Source: a virus. Taken from it: a stretch of 27,316 nucleotides of DNA. Location of the stretch: positions 1 through 27,316 of the IMG/VR virus record IMGVR_UViG_3300046167_000303. One strand, written 5' to 3'. Both the position numbers and the translations under genes were made by a program. The notes under the pieces are model-generated. The model was given only the letters and a program-made list of their open reading frames with translations. It searched no databases and was not told the origin of the DNA. How positions within the stretch are numbered: position 1 is the first letter of the stretch; each line of letters starts with the position of its first letter. Positions 19,482 through 22,843 of the stretch are shown here, piece by piece.

Positions 19482-19857
19482 TTTTGACAACAACGACAGG
19501 CCAACGCTGTGTGCATATTGTAAAGCACCAGCGGGGCCTTTATTAAAGAAAGACAAAGAACATTGGCTTGGAGCATGCTGTATGGCTCATTTAAAAAAAC
19601 TAGGTGAAGGCGAACGCCTCCCTAACAAGGCGCAACTTAATGACATTGGTACTGAGTACGCTATAGCATCCACCAAAAATTTATACAAAAAATTATTGAT
19701 TGACAACAAAGGCGAACCCTTGCATGAATGGGAAAGGGACGATAGAAAAAAAATATTTGTTTCAATCATTAGAGAATATCTAAACTGGGCCAACGCCAGG
19801 GCCAGGGAAGATGACGAAAGGCTTATAAATGGATCTAAAAAAATACTGCAAAGATAA
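19465..19857 (+). CDS. Cys-motif protein of unknown function in replication operon
   Basis: A 130-residue protein. The N-terminal third has C-A-Y-C near 16-19 and G-A-C-C-M-A-H about 20 residues later, a plausible zinc-ribbon site of Cys and His. The rest is charged helix (R-D-D-R-K-K-I-F-V-S-I-I-R-E-Y) ending in a basic tail. It begins inside the SSB-like gene (17-base overlap) and ends 29 bases inside the primase-helicase gene. It could be a primase or helicase partner, but this is inference from position only. Confidence 0.7.
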   Translation: MTHHFNFDNNDRPTLCAYCKAPAGPLLKKDKEHWLGACCMAHLKKLGEGERLPNKAQLNDIGTEYAIASTKNLYKKLLIDNKGEPLHEWERDDRKKIFVSIIREYLNWANARAREDDERLINGSKKILQR

Positions 19858-21661
19858 CAATATAATACCAGAACTTAAAAATACAAATACACATAAAAAA
19901 ACAACAAACGACTTAATACATGAGATGCAGGCACAAGGTTTGCAAATCAATCACCTGGAATCAACAGGTAAAATTGTTAGGGTGCCAGTCGCTCTACCTG
20001 GAATGAAGCCAGACCTAGGCGGTTCTAAGTCTGGTTATTATGTTGTTAATGAATTACACGGTCACTACTTCGCAACATTTGGTAATTGGAAAACAGGCTT
20101 TGAGGGTAAGTGGAGTTCAGTTGATTCTAATACTTTAAGCCAGGTGGACAGAGAAGCTTTACATAAACAAATGCAAGAAGCATCTGAGCAAGCGAAAATT
20201 GATAGAAAAATTAAGCAAGATGAGGTGGCAGAAGAGATACGGGAAAAATTTAATAAATGCAACGATGTTGTCGAGCATGAGTATCTCACAAATAAAAAGG
20301 TTAAAAACTATGGGTTGAAACAATCTAACGGTAGTTTAATTGTTCCCGTGTATTCTACTACAGGTGCAATAAGATCTATACAGTACATAGATAAAAAAGG
20401 GGGTAAAAAGTTTGCCTCCGCATCAGAAATTAAAGGTAATGTTTTTCTTATTGGAATTACATTTAACGAATTAGCTAATTGTGAAAGATTGGTAGTAGCT
20501 GAAGGTTACTCAACATCCGCAACAATATATGAAGCTACCCAGATTCCCGTGGCTTGCGTATTTAGTGCCAACTTTACGTTGGATGCAGTCTCTAAATTGC
20601 GCAAGCTGACGGGTGCTAGAATTATTTTAGCCCTGGATCACGATGACAACGGCGTGGGTGAAAAGAAAGCCCAGGAATGTGCAGCAGCAATACCCAACGT
20701 GGCCGTGCGTCTGCCCAGCGAGCGTGGCGATTACAATGACTTATATTTAAAGCATGGTTTAGATAAAGTGAAAGCTGAGTTGATGGAACACAAGCTTGGT
20801 ATACAAAAGTATGCTATTCGTAACCTGGTAGGCACACCAGAACCACAAAAGTTTTTAGTAGAGGGATTGATACCAATGGGTAAACCAGGACTCCTGGCAG
20901 CGTCTGGTGGAGTTGGTAAATCATTAAGTGTAATCCAATTGGCATTGTGCATAGCTTGTGGTGGAAGATGGTGGGGAAAAGATGTTACTGAGCGTGGTAA
21001 CTCTATTATATTTGCCAGTGAAGATGATCTTCCAGAGATCCACAGAAGACTAGAACTCCTGGATCCCCTGGGAAAAAGATTCCAATCAGAGCATGAGGTT
21101 TATATCTTTCCGATTCCAGAGCAGAAAGAACCAATGATTTTATTGAGGGAAGAAGGCGTCACGGATCTTGCAATGGAATTAGTGGAAGAAATTAAATCAA
21201 TACCAAATATTAAATTGGTTTGTTTTGATCCGCTCCAGGCATTTACCACTGGTAATGTTTCTAGTAGTAACGAAGTTGGCCAGTTGTGGGGATCTTACTG
21301 TGCAAACATAAGCGCAAGGTTACAGTGTTGCACGCTAACCGTACATCATTTAAACAAACAAGGTTTAACGGTAGATTCAGATGACCAGATGGTTCAGAGA
21401 ACAAGCGTGAGGGGCGCCTCGTCACTTGTCGATTCGCAGAGGTTCTGCCTCACAATGGCCCTGGCAAGTGCAGAGGATTGTGAAAGAATTTGTGAAGAGC
21501 AACATGTACCCTACGACAGAATGGCGGTGGTAAGGGGCGCGCTTGTAAAATCTAACAGCGGAGGCGTAGACTATTCTGCAAAAACATTATTTAGACGCAA
21601 CGGTGTTTTAGAACCATTAAATGAACCGCTAGATACCAGTAATTTATATGACAATTTTTAA
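19829..21661 (+). CDS. Toprim primase and RepA-like helicase fusion
   Basis: A 610-residue bifunctional replication protein. The N-terminal 200 residues include F-A-T-F-G-N-W-K-T-G, usual in plasmid/phage Toprim primases. The Toprim core has V-V-A-E225-G-Y-S and A-L-D270-H-D272-D-N-G, giving the catalytic Glu and the D-x-D pair. The C-terminal half is an AAA_25/RepA-type hexameric helicase: Walker A G360-G-V-G-K-S365, then S-E-D-D-L-P-E, Walker B V-C-F-D-P-L, and T-V-H-H-L-N-K. It should both prime and unwind. The cysteine zinc finger seen in T7 gp4 is not visible, though the preceding small Cys protein might supply one. Confidence 0.9.
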   Translation: MDLKKYCKDNNIIPELKNTNTHKKTTNDLIHEMQAQGLQINHLESTGKIVRVPVALPGMKPDLGGSKSGYYVVNELHGHYFATFGNWKTGFEGKWSSVDSNTLSQVDREALHKQMQEASEQAKIDRKIKQDEVAEEIREKFNKCNDVVEHEYLTNKKVKNYGLKQSNGSLIVPVYSTTGAIRSIQYIDKKGGKKFASASEIKGNVFLIGITFNELANCERLVVAEGYSTSATIYEATQIPVACVFSANFTLDAVSKLRKLTGARIILALDHDDNGVGEKKAQECAAAIPNVAVRLPSERGDYNDLYLKHGLDKVKAELMEHKLGIQKYAIRNLVGTPEPQKFLVEGLIPMGKPGLLAASGGVGKSLSVIQLALCIACGGRWWGKDVTERGNSIIFASEDDLPEIHRRLELLDPLGKRFQSEHEVYIFPIPEQKEPMILLREEGVTDLAMELVEEIKSIPNIKLVCFDPLQAFTTGNVSSSNEVGQLWGSYCANISARLQCCTLTVHHLNKQGLTVDSDDQMVQRTSVRGASSLVDSQRFCLTMALASAEDCERICEEQHVPYDRMAVVRGALVKSNSGGVDYSAKTLFRRNGVLEPLNEPLDTSNLYDNF

Positions 21662-22241
21662 AATGAAAGACTTGTACGAAGTAAAAAAAATATCATACCA
21701 GGACACAAAACCATTTATTTTAGACATACATTACGCTAAACGTATGCCATCTATTAGTTATGCTTATGGTTTATTTTTGAACGATCAATTGGTTGGTATT
21801 ATTTCTTATGGATCACCAGCATCTCCACATTTGTGTAAAGGTATAGCTGGTGAAAAGAACAAAAAATTAGTTATAGAATTAAATAGATTAGTTTTAAAAA
21901 ACAATAAAAAAAATGAAGCATCTATGTTAATCGGTGCATCTTTTAAATTATTACCTAAACCAAAAATAATAGTTTCGTATGCTGACACAGCACAAGATCA
22001 TTTGGGAGTTGTTTACCAGGCTACTAATTTTTTATTTACAGGTACTTCTAAACCTAGAACAGATATGGCTGGTAAAGATGGTAAACATTCCAGGCATCAT
22101 TTAGGCGATAGGACCAAAAGAGTTTATAGAAGTGCTAAACATAGGTATGTATATCTTTTGGGTAATAAAAGACAAAAAAGACAATTAAAACAAGAATTAA
22201 GATATGGAATTATGGATTATCCACGAAAAAACGAGGAATAA
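21648..22241 (+). CDS. mom: Mom-family DNA modification protein
   Basis: A 197-residue protein with the run of motifs seen in the Mom family: H-Y-A-K-R-M-P-S-I-S-Y-A-Y-G, then Y-G-S-P-A-S-P-H-L-C-K-G-I-A-G, L-N-R-L-V-L, E-A-S-M-L-I-G, V-S-Y-A-D-T-A-Q-D-H-L-G-V-V-Y-Q-A-T-N-F, and a basic R-S-A-K-H-R-Y-V-Y end. Mu Mom turns adenine into N6-methylcarbamoyl-adenine and so blocks many restriction enzymes. The same role is inferred here. It is the last gene of the replication operon and starts 14 bases inside the primase-helicase gene; an ATG at 21663 is a second option. No neighbour resembling the Mu regulator Com is evident. Confidence 0.85.
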   Translation: MTIFKMKDLYEVKKISYQDTKPFILDIHYAKRMPSISYAYGLFLNDQLVGIISYGSPASPHLCKGIAGEKNKKLVIELNRLVLKNNKKNEASMLIGASFKLLPKPKIIVSYADTAQDHLGVVYQATNFLFTGTSKPRTDMAGKDGKHSRHHLGDRTKRVYRSAKHRYVYLLGNKRQKRQLKQELRYGIMDYPRKNEE

Positions 22242-22246
22242 CCATA

Positions 22247-22308
22247 GGGAGTGTTAGGGACATAGTATGGGAGTGTTAGGGACATACCTTGGGTAAGATA
22301 GGGACATA
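22247..22308 (+). repeat. Three 22-bp-spaced iterons, possible origin
   Basis: GGGAGTGTTAGGGACATA occurs at 22247 and 22269, and a diverged third copy, GGGTAAGATAGGGACATA, at 22291. The ten-base core TAGGGACATA is identical in all three, and the spacing is exactly 22 bases (two helical turns). This is the form of plasmid iterons bound by a Rep protein, and a winged-helix gene follows. Reading as an operator array for the same protein is the alternative. Confidence 0.85.
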
Positions 22309-22335
22309 GTACGCCCCTACTTGGGTCATATATCC

Positions 22336-22355
22336 ATATCATACTCATATGATAT
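22336..22355. promoter_or_regulatory. AT-rich perfect palindrome between iterons and initiator gene
   Basis: ATATCATA, four bases, TATGATAT: an eight-base perfect inverted repeat in a very AT-rich stretch. In iteron plasmids, dyads like this before the rep gene bind Rep dimers and shut off its synthesis. The AT-richness would also suit a DNA unwinding element. Confidence 0.7.
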
Positions 22356-22356
22356 A

Positions 22357-22388
22357 GGAAGCGAACCCCTTGAGGGGGTTCAGCTTCC
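22357..22388 (+). other. Strong 13-bp hairpin in leader of winged-helix gene
   Basis: GGAAGC plus GAACCCC pair with GGGGTTC plus GCTTCC around a five-base loop, with one bulged A at 22382. No T tract follows on either strand, so it is not an intrinsic terminator. It starts one base after the palindrome and ends 23 bases before the ATG at 22412. It could be a leader RNA control element or a single-strand priming hairpin of the origin. Confidence 0.8.
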
Positions 22389-22411
22389 AGGGAAAAAAAA
22401 GAAGTAAAGAA

Positions 22412-22843
22412 ATGAAAAGATTTAAAACAATAGACAAGGACCACTGGTGGATCACAGCACACACGAGCGAGCGGGAGCGAGCGGGAGTCTTTGTCCCGTT
22501 AGAGCTAGCCAGGAGAGATGGAGACTTCTCCAGGGTGAGAGCAGTGGTATGGGCTTGGTACAGGCGCGAGTGCGGGCGGACGGATCTATCCGTGAGTGCG
22601 AAGCTTATTATGTGGGCGCTATGCGAGCGGTGGAGGTATGAAACCTGGAGCAGCCATGATGCGATTAGTTATTATGCAAAGATGACTGGTGTTAATAGAA
22701 AAACATCTGGTAGAGCTATGACTGAGTTAATTGAGAAAGAGGTGGTGTGGTGTGTCCTGGAGGGTGAGCAGAAGCGCTTGAGGAAATCACAACCTGGTGG
22801 TAAGAAGCATTTTTTGTTAGTGGGCCTGGTAGACCTATTGTAG
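22412..22843 (+). CDS. Winged-helix (HTH_36-like) protein, candidate replication initiator
   Basis: A 143-residue protein. Residues about 65-115 (A-K-L-I-M-W-A-L-C-E-R-W, then A-I-S-Y-Y-A-K-M-T-G-V-N-R-K-T, then A-M-T-E-L-I-E-K) fit the HTH_36 winged helix found in phage and plasmid replication proteins. I chose the ATG at 22412; a TTG at 22370 would put the start inside the hairpin. Base and codon use are clearly more GC-rich than the neighbours, with a tandem AGCGAGCGGG near 22466, suggesting separate origin. With the iterons upstream it could start replication or repress its own promoter. No nickase motif is seen. Confidence 0.78.
   Translation: MKRFKTIDKDHWWITAHTSERERAGVFVPLELARRDGDFSRVRAVVWAWYRRECGRTDLSVSAKLIMWALCERWRYETWSSHDAISYYAKMTGVNRKTSGRAMTELIEKEVVWCVLEGEQKRLRKSQPGGKKHFLLVGLVDLL

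Follow-up and report, generated by a model that had tools for sequence, protein, structure and literature searches.

What would an array of iterons followed by a putative replication-initiator gene be doing in a phage that also encodes a primase-helicase? The sequence studied here, a linear viral contig of 27,316 bp that we call the window, was the subject of an earlier note, which had left three answers side by side: the origin of the phage, a captured plasmid replicon, or the basis of a phage-plasmid state. From sequence comparison, we suggest that the module is the phage's own iteron origin together with its initiator gene, and we assign this reading a probability of about 0.72. The iteron origin proposed earlier is hence retained, as most likely belonging to the phage itself, while the two plasmid-based readings are not.

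The phage and the surroundings of the probable origin block

The contig starts inside an M15 peptidase gene and ends just past the small terminase gene, which is why the large terminase and portal genes are missing from it. Its major head protein and terminase have relatives among tailed phages, several of them podoviruses, and no close relative of the right-hand 7.3 kb was found among isolate phages at the DNA level. The phages that bear the origin block are uncultured and mostly marine. One relative of 35,287 bp (G013) has ends that overlap by 99 bp and looks complete; GC skew is positive almost all the way round it. GC skew gave no origin-type turning point and tracks gene orientation. In model searches, PolA had no match in 12 records, and neither PolB nor PolIII-alpha in 9. 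A tyrosine integrase was detected in one of 12 phage records; this lone gene (G022, 22181-22648; L316) belongs to a distant relative in an otherwise integrase-free group.

Between the helicase gene and the origin block (Table 1) lies a Mom-like gene (Pfam Mom, 3.5e-37), whose product probably modifies phage DNA against host restriction. It is absent from all 11 related records searched and is considered accessory. The single near match to a DnaA box, TTATCCACG at 22217, falls inside this gene and was discarded.

Table 1. Features of the probable origin block and adjoining genes in the window
Feature	Position	Strand	Remarks
Toprim primase + AAA_25 (RepA-type) helicase gene	19829..21661	+	probable partner, upstream of rep
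Mom-like DNA-modification gene	21648..22241	+	between helicase and origin
Iteron 1	22247..22268	+	core TAGGGACATA, 22255-22264
Iteron 2	22269..22290	+	core 22277-22286
Iteron 3	22291..22312	+	core 22299-22308
Degenerate fourth iteron core GGGTCATA	22323..22330	+	in register, 22 bp after iteron 3
Invariant ATATATCC element	22328..22335	+	between iterons and hairpins
Hairpin 1	22336..22355	.	AT-rich palindrome, 8-bp stem; arms 22336-22343 / 22348-22355
Hairpin 2	22357..22388	.	13 bp = 6 + 7 bp, one bulged A at 22382
rep	22412..22843	+	143-aa winged-helix (HTH_36-like) putative replication initiator

Iterons phased to an invariant element

As had been noted earlier, three repeats with an identical ten-base core, TAGGGACATA, follow one another at a spacing of exactly 22 bp (22247-22312). 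The sequence GGGACATA occurs three times in the 27,316 bp of the window, each time in an iteron, where 0.72 occurrences would be expected by chance; a count of three, taken anywhere and with spacing ignored, was reached in 2 of 100 shuffles. The first reading had missed the degenerate fourth core, which overlaps ATATATCC; CATA stands one base ahead of ATATATCC in 67 of 70 relatives. Absence of the repeats from related phages would have spoken against an origin, and they are present: across 70 distinct related upstream regions, GGGACA is found at 27, 48/49 and 69/71 nt before ATATATCC. Because the repeats are phased to this element in so many distinct regions, their periodicity is not due to chance, and a phasing of ~21-22 bp places them on about one face of the helix. 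The element is exact in 68 of the 70 distinct relatives, and its last six bases are identical in all 70, a figure that is partly a matter of construction, the regions having been collected with ATATATCC and two one-base variants; the element is likewise seen upstream in relatives recovered solely through their protein. In some groups the iterons are bracketed by a strong, long inverted repeat; the window and many other sequences do not have it, and for that reason it was left out of our claim.

Conservation of the block and the probable helicase partner

Searches with the Rep protein and with the repeat pattern recovered the origin block in more than 60 distinct uncultured phage contigs, with Rep proteins 53-100% identical to that of the window. 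In almost all relatives with enough sequence to tell, the repeats, rep and the helicase partner occur as a conserved set. The order of elements is unchanged in the distant L174 group, whose stem sequences differ; L174 itself carries dyad iterons (GGGACATATTGTCCC).

Of 121 informative loci (a set that includes overlapping loci of the same contigs), 120 have a Toprim/AAA_25 gene upstream of rep and in the same orientation, and AAA_25 was found in all seven distant records tested. The helicase of the window matches AAA_25 with E=4.9e-31 and has a Toprim domain; a homologue in a Wolbachia phage is annotated as "similar to RepA of plasmid RSF1010". That the phage also has a primase-helicase had been pointed out earlier. 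Its presence is borne out, and we consider it probable that this Toprim/RepA-type enzyme is the partner of Rep, and not a rival system.

The gene downstream of the hairpins is HTH_36-like, as first described, although the match of the window's Rep (E=4.6e-4, 20.4 bits) lies below the 25-bit Pfam cut-off. Among 20 Rep members, all match HTH_36 (best E=2e-6) and 13 match a PHROG "replication initiation protein" family, all of these matches being weak. Pfam returned only HTH_36 for the window protein, the RepC family was not among the matches of the 20 members, and the window protein did not match Rep_3. Sequence search of the PDB returned nothing, and comparison by fold, with a model of pLDDT 64, returned only general MarR-like winged helices at E>=0.06. 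No relative of Rep was found in 72,556 plasmids (tblastn, E<=1), in 84,980 bacterial and archaeal genomes, or among isolate phages.

Two hairpins conserved in structure and variable in sequence

The AT-rich palindrome with 8-bp arms and the 13-bp hairpin behind it are both where the earlier note placed them. Their covariation went unseen at that time, and it is the new part of this analysis and its strongest feature. Both hairpins are found in every relative, between the iterons and the rep start codon and in fixed order, hairpin 1 directly after ATATATCC and hairpin 2 0-5 nt further on, with the structure kept and the sequence variable. We collected 16 distinct variants of hairpin 1 (122 stem pairs) and 22 of hairpin 2 (297 stem pairs), in which pairs repeatedly swap between A-T and G-C. 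All 419 pairs are Watson-Crick as scored, with no G.T and no A.C, in a test that rests on related sequences and in which scoring stopped short of an outermost G.T present in some hairpins (e.g. L165: GGAGAG.../...CTCTCT). Seven terminator-like hairpins of the same loci, passed through the same routine as a control, yielded four G.T and three A.C in 60 pairs, and the routine hence does not hide wobble pairs as such.

The arms of hairpin 1 pair at 100%, versus a mean of 52% and a maximum of 80% with shuffled 3' arms; these pairs were counted by script, since MAFFT alignments broke the pairing register. For hairpin 2, an alignment of 12 variants shows 10 of 12 pairs altered on both sides and a covariation of 0.655, versus 0.232 when shuffled and <=0.148 when slid (0 of 500 shuffles). 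Hairpin 2 also retains exactly one bulged nucleotide in all 22 variants, where its two stems meet; in most cases it is an A on the 3' side.

The window's Rep protein accompanies three hairpin-1 alleles that differ in sequence and are all perfectly paired, and the hairpin-1 allele ATATCATAGTCATATGATAT is common to three groups of Rep proteins with no more than 60-77% identity between them. Since one Rep occurs with several alleles and one allele with several Reps, the sequence of hairpin 1 is probably not read by Rep, and the alleles seem to be exchanged between phages or to arise repeatedly. RNA stems normally tolerate G.U pairs, and in our reading the absence of G.T pairs from these stems thus points to hairpins that act as DNA rather than RNA.

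The distance from hairpin 2 to the rep start codon ranges from 12 to 107 nt among relatives. In L174 and L298 an extra block of ~80 nt lies between hairpin 2 and rep, setting the two further apart, and has an inverted repeat of its own, GAGGTAGATTA...TAATCTACCTC in L174 and a similar one in L298. Rfam returned no family for the region, only one chance match (E=1.8) far below the gathering score; neither a promoter nor a terminator was found, and there is no T run.

The iteron core at other initiator-type genes

In contigs without a Rep relative, pairs of GGGACATA at 21-23 bp spacing are about as numerous as we would expect by chance, and therefore only their placement is informative. Several are located within or next to genes for winged-helix, initiator-type proteins in unrelated phage contigs. 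The best cases are L214 (HTH_36 4.7e-11, DnaT 8.3e-7), with a 23-bp iteron period and the iteron core inside the gene, and L172 (HTH_36 1.5e-5), with an adjoining TTATCCACAG box. In L182/L189 the period is 22 bp, which means that the repeats are not a protein repeat, and L132 and L128 are weaker cases. Iterons of the GGGACATA type are also found at a Rep_3 initiator, confirmed by Pfam in L253 only; L261 has a similar protein. This placement is suggestive and does not amount to a test; a common iteron code of HTH_36 initiators is possible.

L253, L261 and L237 are Oscillospiraceae/Ruminococcaceae contigs with 22-23-bp GGGACATAGACTTTTTC iterons, which in L253 and L261 directly precede the Rep_3-type initiator gene. 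Many other GGGACATA arrays in bacterial contigs were set aside, being either dispersed repeats or arrays with a 21-bp period, many of which fall inside open frames. In L228-L275 (Coriobacteriaceae SIG39), 21-bp arrays of GGGGACATACATGTGGCGACC are scattered across many contigs belonging to a single metagenome bin.

Comparison with known replication systems

In plasmid RSF1010, RepC acts on the iterons, RepA unwinds and RepB' primes at ssiA and ssiB; in ssiA a 21-nt hairpin is preceded by a single-stranded tail of 6 nt, and the tail is recognised by its sequence (PMC4434180, PMC6925257). The ATATATCC element and hairpin 1 of the phage together have the same shape as ssiA. Like the IncQ oriV of RSF1010, with its three ~20-bp iterons, the phage has three iterons, of 22 bp and with one degenerate copy in addition; it likewise encodes a separate, putative iteron-binding protein and a helicase of the RepA type (AAA_25), carries hairpins that follow a fixed single-stranded 5' tail and may be primer sites, and lacks a polymerase of its own. 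Unlike RSF1010, its Rep is no RepC homologue by Pfam, a Toprim domain joined to the helicase takes the place of the RepB' AEP primase, its hairpins adjoin each other and rep, and the replicon that hosts them is a phage. We do not take the module to descend from IncQ.

Replication of pRN1 requires a stem-loop whose structure is conserved and whose sequence is not, and a stem mutant was rescued by restored symmetry (PMC4234260). The pRN1 family, from Sulfolobus plasmids and reported also in phages, thus shares with our module a structure-conserved, sequence-variable stem-loop beside a replication gene; in contrast, pRN1 combines a fused AEP primase-SF3 helicase with one 100-nt stem-loop and no iterons, whereas the phage has Toprim and AAA_25. 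The lambda O-type and HTH_36/DnaT phage initiators are also winged-helix proteins with their own iterons nearby, and in L214 a gene of this kind contains the iteron core seen here, but in our phage the iterons lie upstream of the gene, Rep has just one short domain, and the module includes a structured pair of hairpins. Rep_3 iteron plasmids (e.g. L253, L261) similarly have 22-bp GGGACATA iterons adjoining the initiator gene, yet Rep_3 consists of two winged helices and bears no detectable similarity to the phage Rep.

Discussion

We propose, by analogy, that the module works after the manner of an IncQ origin, though its primase is of another kind and its initiator is unrelated. Rep would bind the 22-bp iterons, open the AT-rich DNA next to the last of them and recruit the phage's Toprim/RepA-type primase-helicase. 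Both hairpins would be exposed as single-stranded DNA or as cruciforms and be recognised by the primase-helicase through their shape, together with the fixed ATATATCC tail, marking the starts of primers that host polymerase would extend. We give hairpins acting as DNA primer sites slightly less than an even chance. More tentatively still, the block may represent an undescribed class of origin, in which iterons are combined with two shape-read DNA hairpins that serve a Toprim-type primase-helicase as single-strand primer sites, the hairpin sequences turning over and passing from phage to phage as equivalent alleles, with Rep unchanged.

It could be argued instead that the hairpins fold in the leader RNA of rep and regulate the gene through stability, translation or autoregulation, the iterons upstream being either origin or operator. 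The position of the hairpins ahead of the rep start codon in every relative would suit such a role, single strands of the region fold better than shuffles (RNA z -3.3), and a hairpin at the 5' end or a bulged base is often a signal between RNA and protein. We nevertheless regard it as unlikely, given that no G.U appears among the scored stem pairs despite their repeated A-T/G-C switches, that the minimum-energy RNA fold of the window omits hairpin 1 while the DNA fold forms it, that the start codon lies at such variable distances from hairpin 2, and that no Rfam family, promoter or terminator was matched. The exactness of the stems might also reflect the mutation process and not selection, with template switching correcting quasi-palindromes; this would yield Watson-Crick arms free of wobble and could account for the fast turnover of alleles under identical Rep proteins. 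But it would erase the bulge of hairpin 2, which every variant keeps, and both hairpins persist in every relative, close together and in fixed order, so that we hold this explanation to be very doubtful.

Two further readings concern the block as a whole. The repeats could be an operator array, and the small HTH protein a repressor of its own promoter or of a replication switch, without a role in initiation: a winged-helix protein of 143 aa that resembles MarR-type folds would fit, and operators usually lie beside the gene of their regulator. The PHROG initiator matches, the constant company of a primase-helicase and of two hairpins conserved in structure, the occurrence of this repeat core in and beside HTH_36-DnaT and Rep_3 initiator genes elsewhere and the lack of a detected promoter all make this distinctly improbable. 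Capture of a plasmid replicon by the phage, with a phage-plasmid state as the outcome, is the least credible of these possibilities, and only a very small chance can be granted to it. Iterons followed by a rep gene are the standard layout of iteron plasmids, but the protein has no relative in the plasmids or the bacterial and archaeal genomes searched, the module is an inherited part of a whole phage group, and 11 of the 12 records are without a tyrosine integrase.

The origins of uncultured phages are almost never located. If the block is, as we believe, the phage's own iteron origin, it can here be read directly in dozens of genomes, together with a specific set of partners, because the hairpins covary. 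The succession of phased GGGACATA, ATATATCC, hairpin, hairpin and rep provides a signature with which further cases can be searched for. If the hairpins do act as DNA, their variants would constitute a natural set of compensatory mutants and a simple test of RSF1010-style priming in phages, and the origin would be one that is recognisable by its shape rather than by its sequence.
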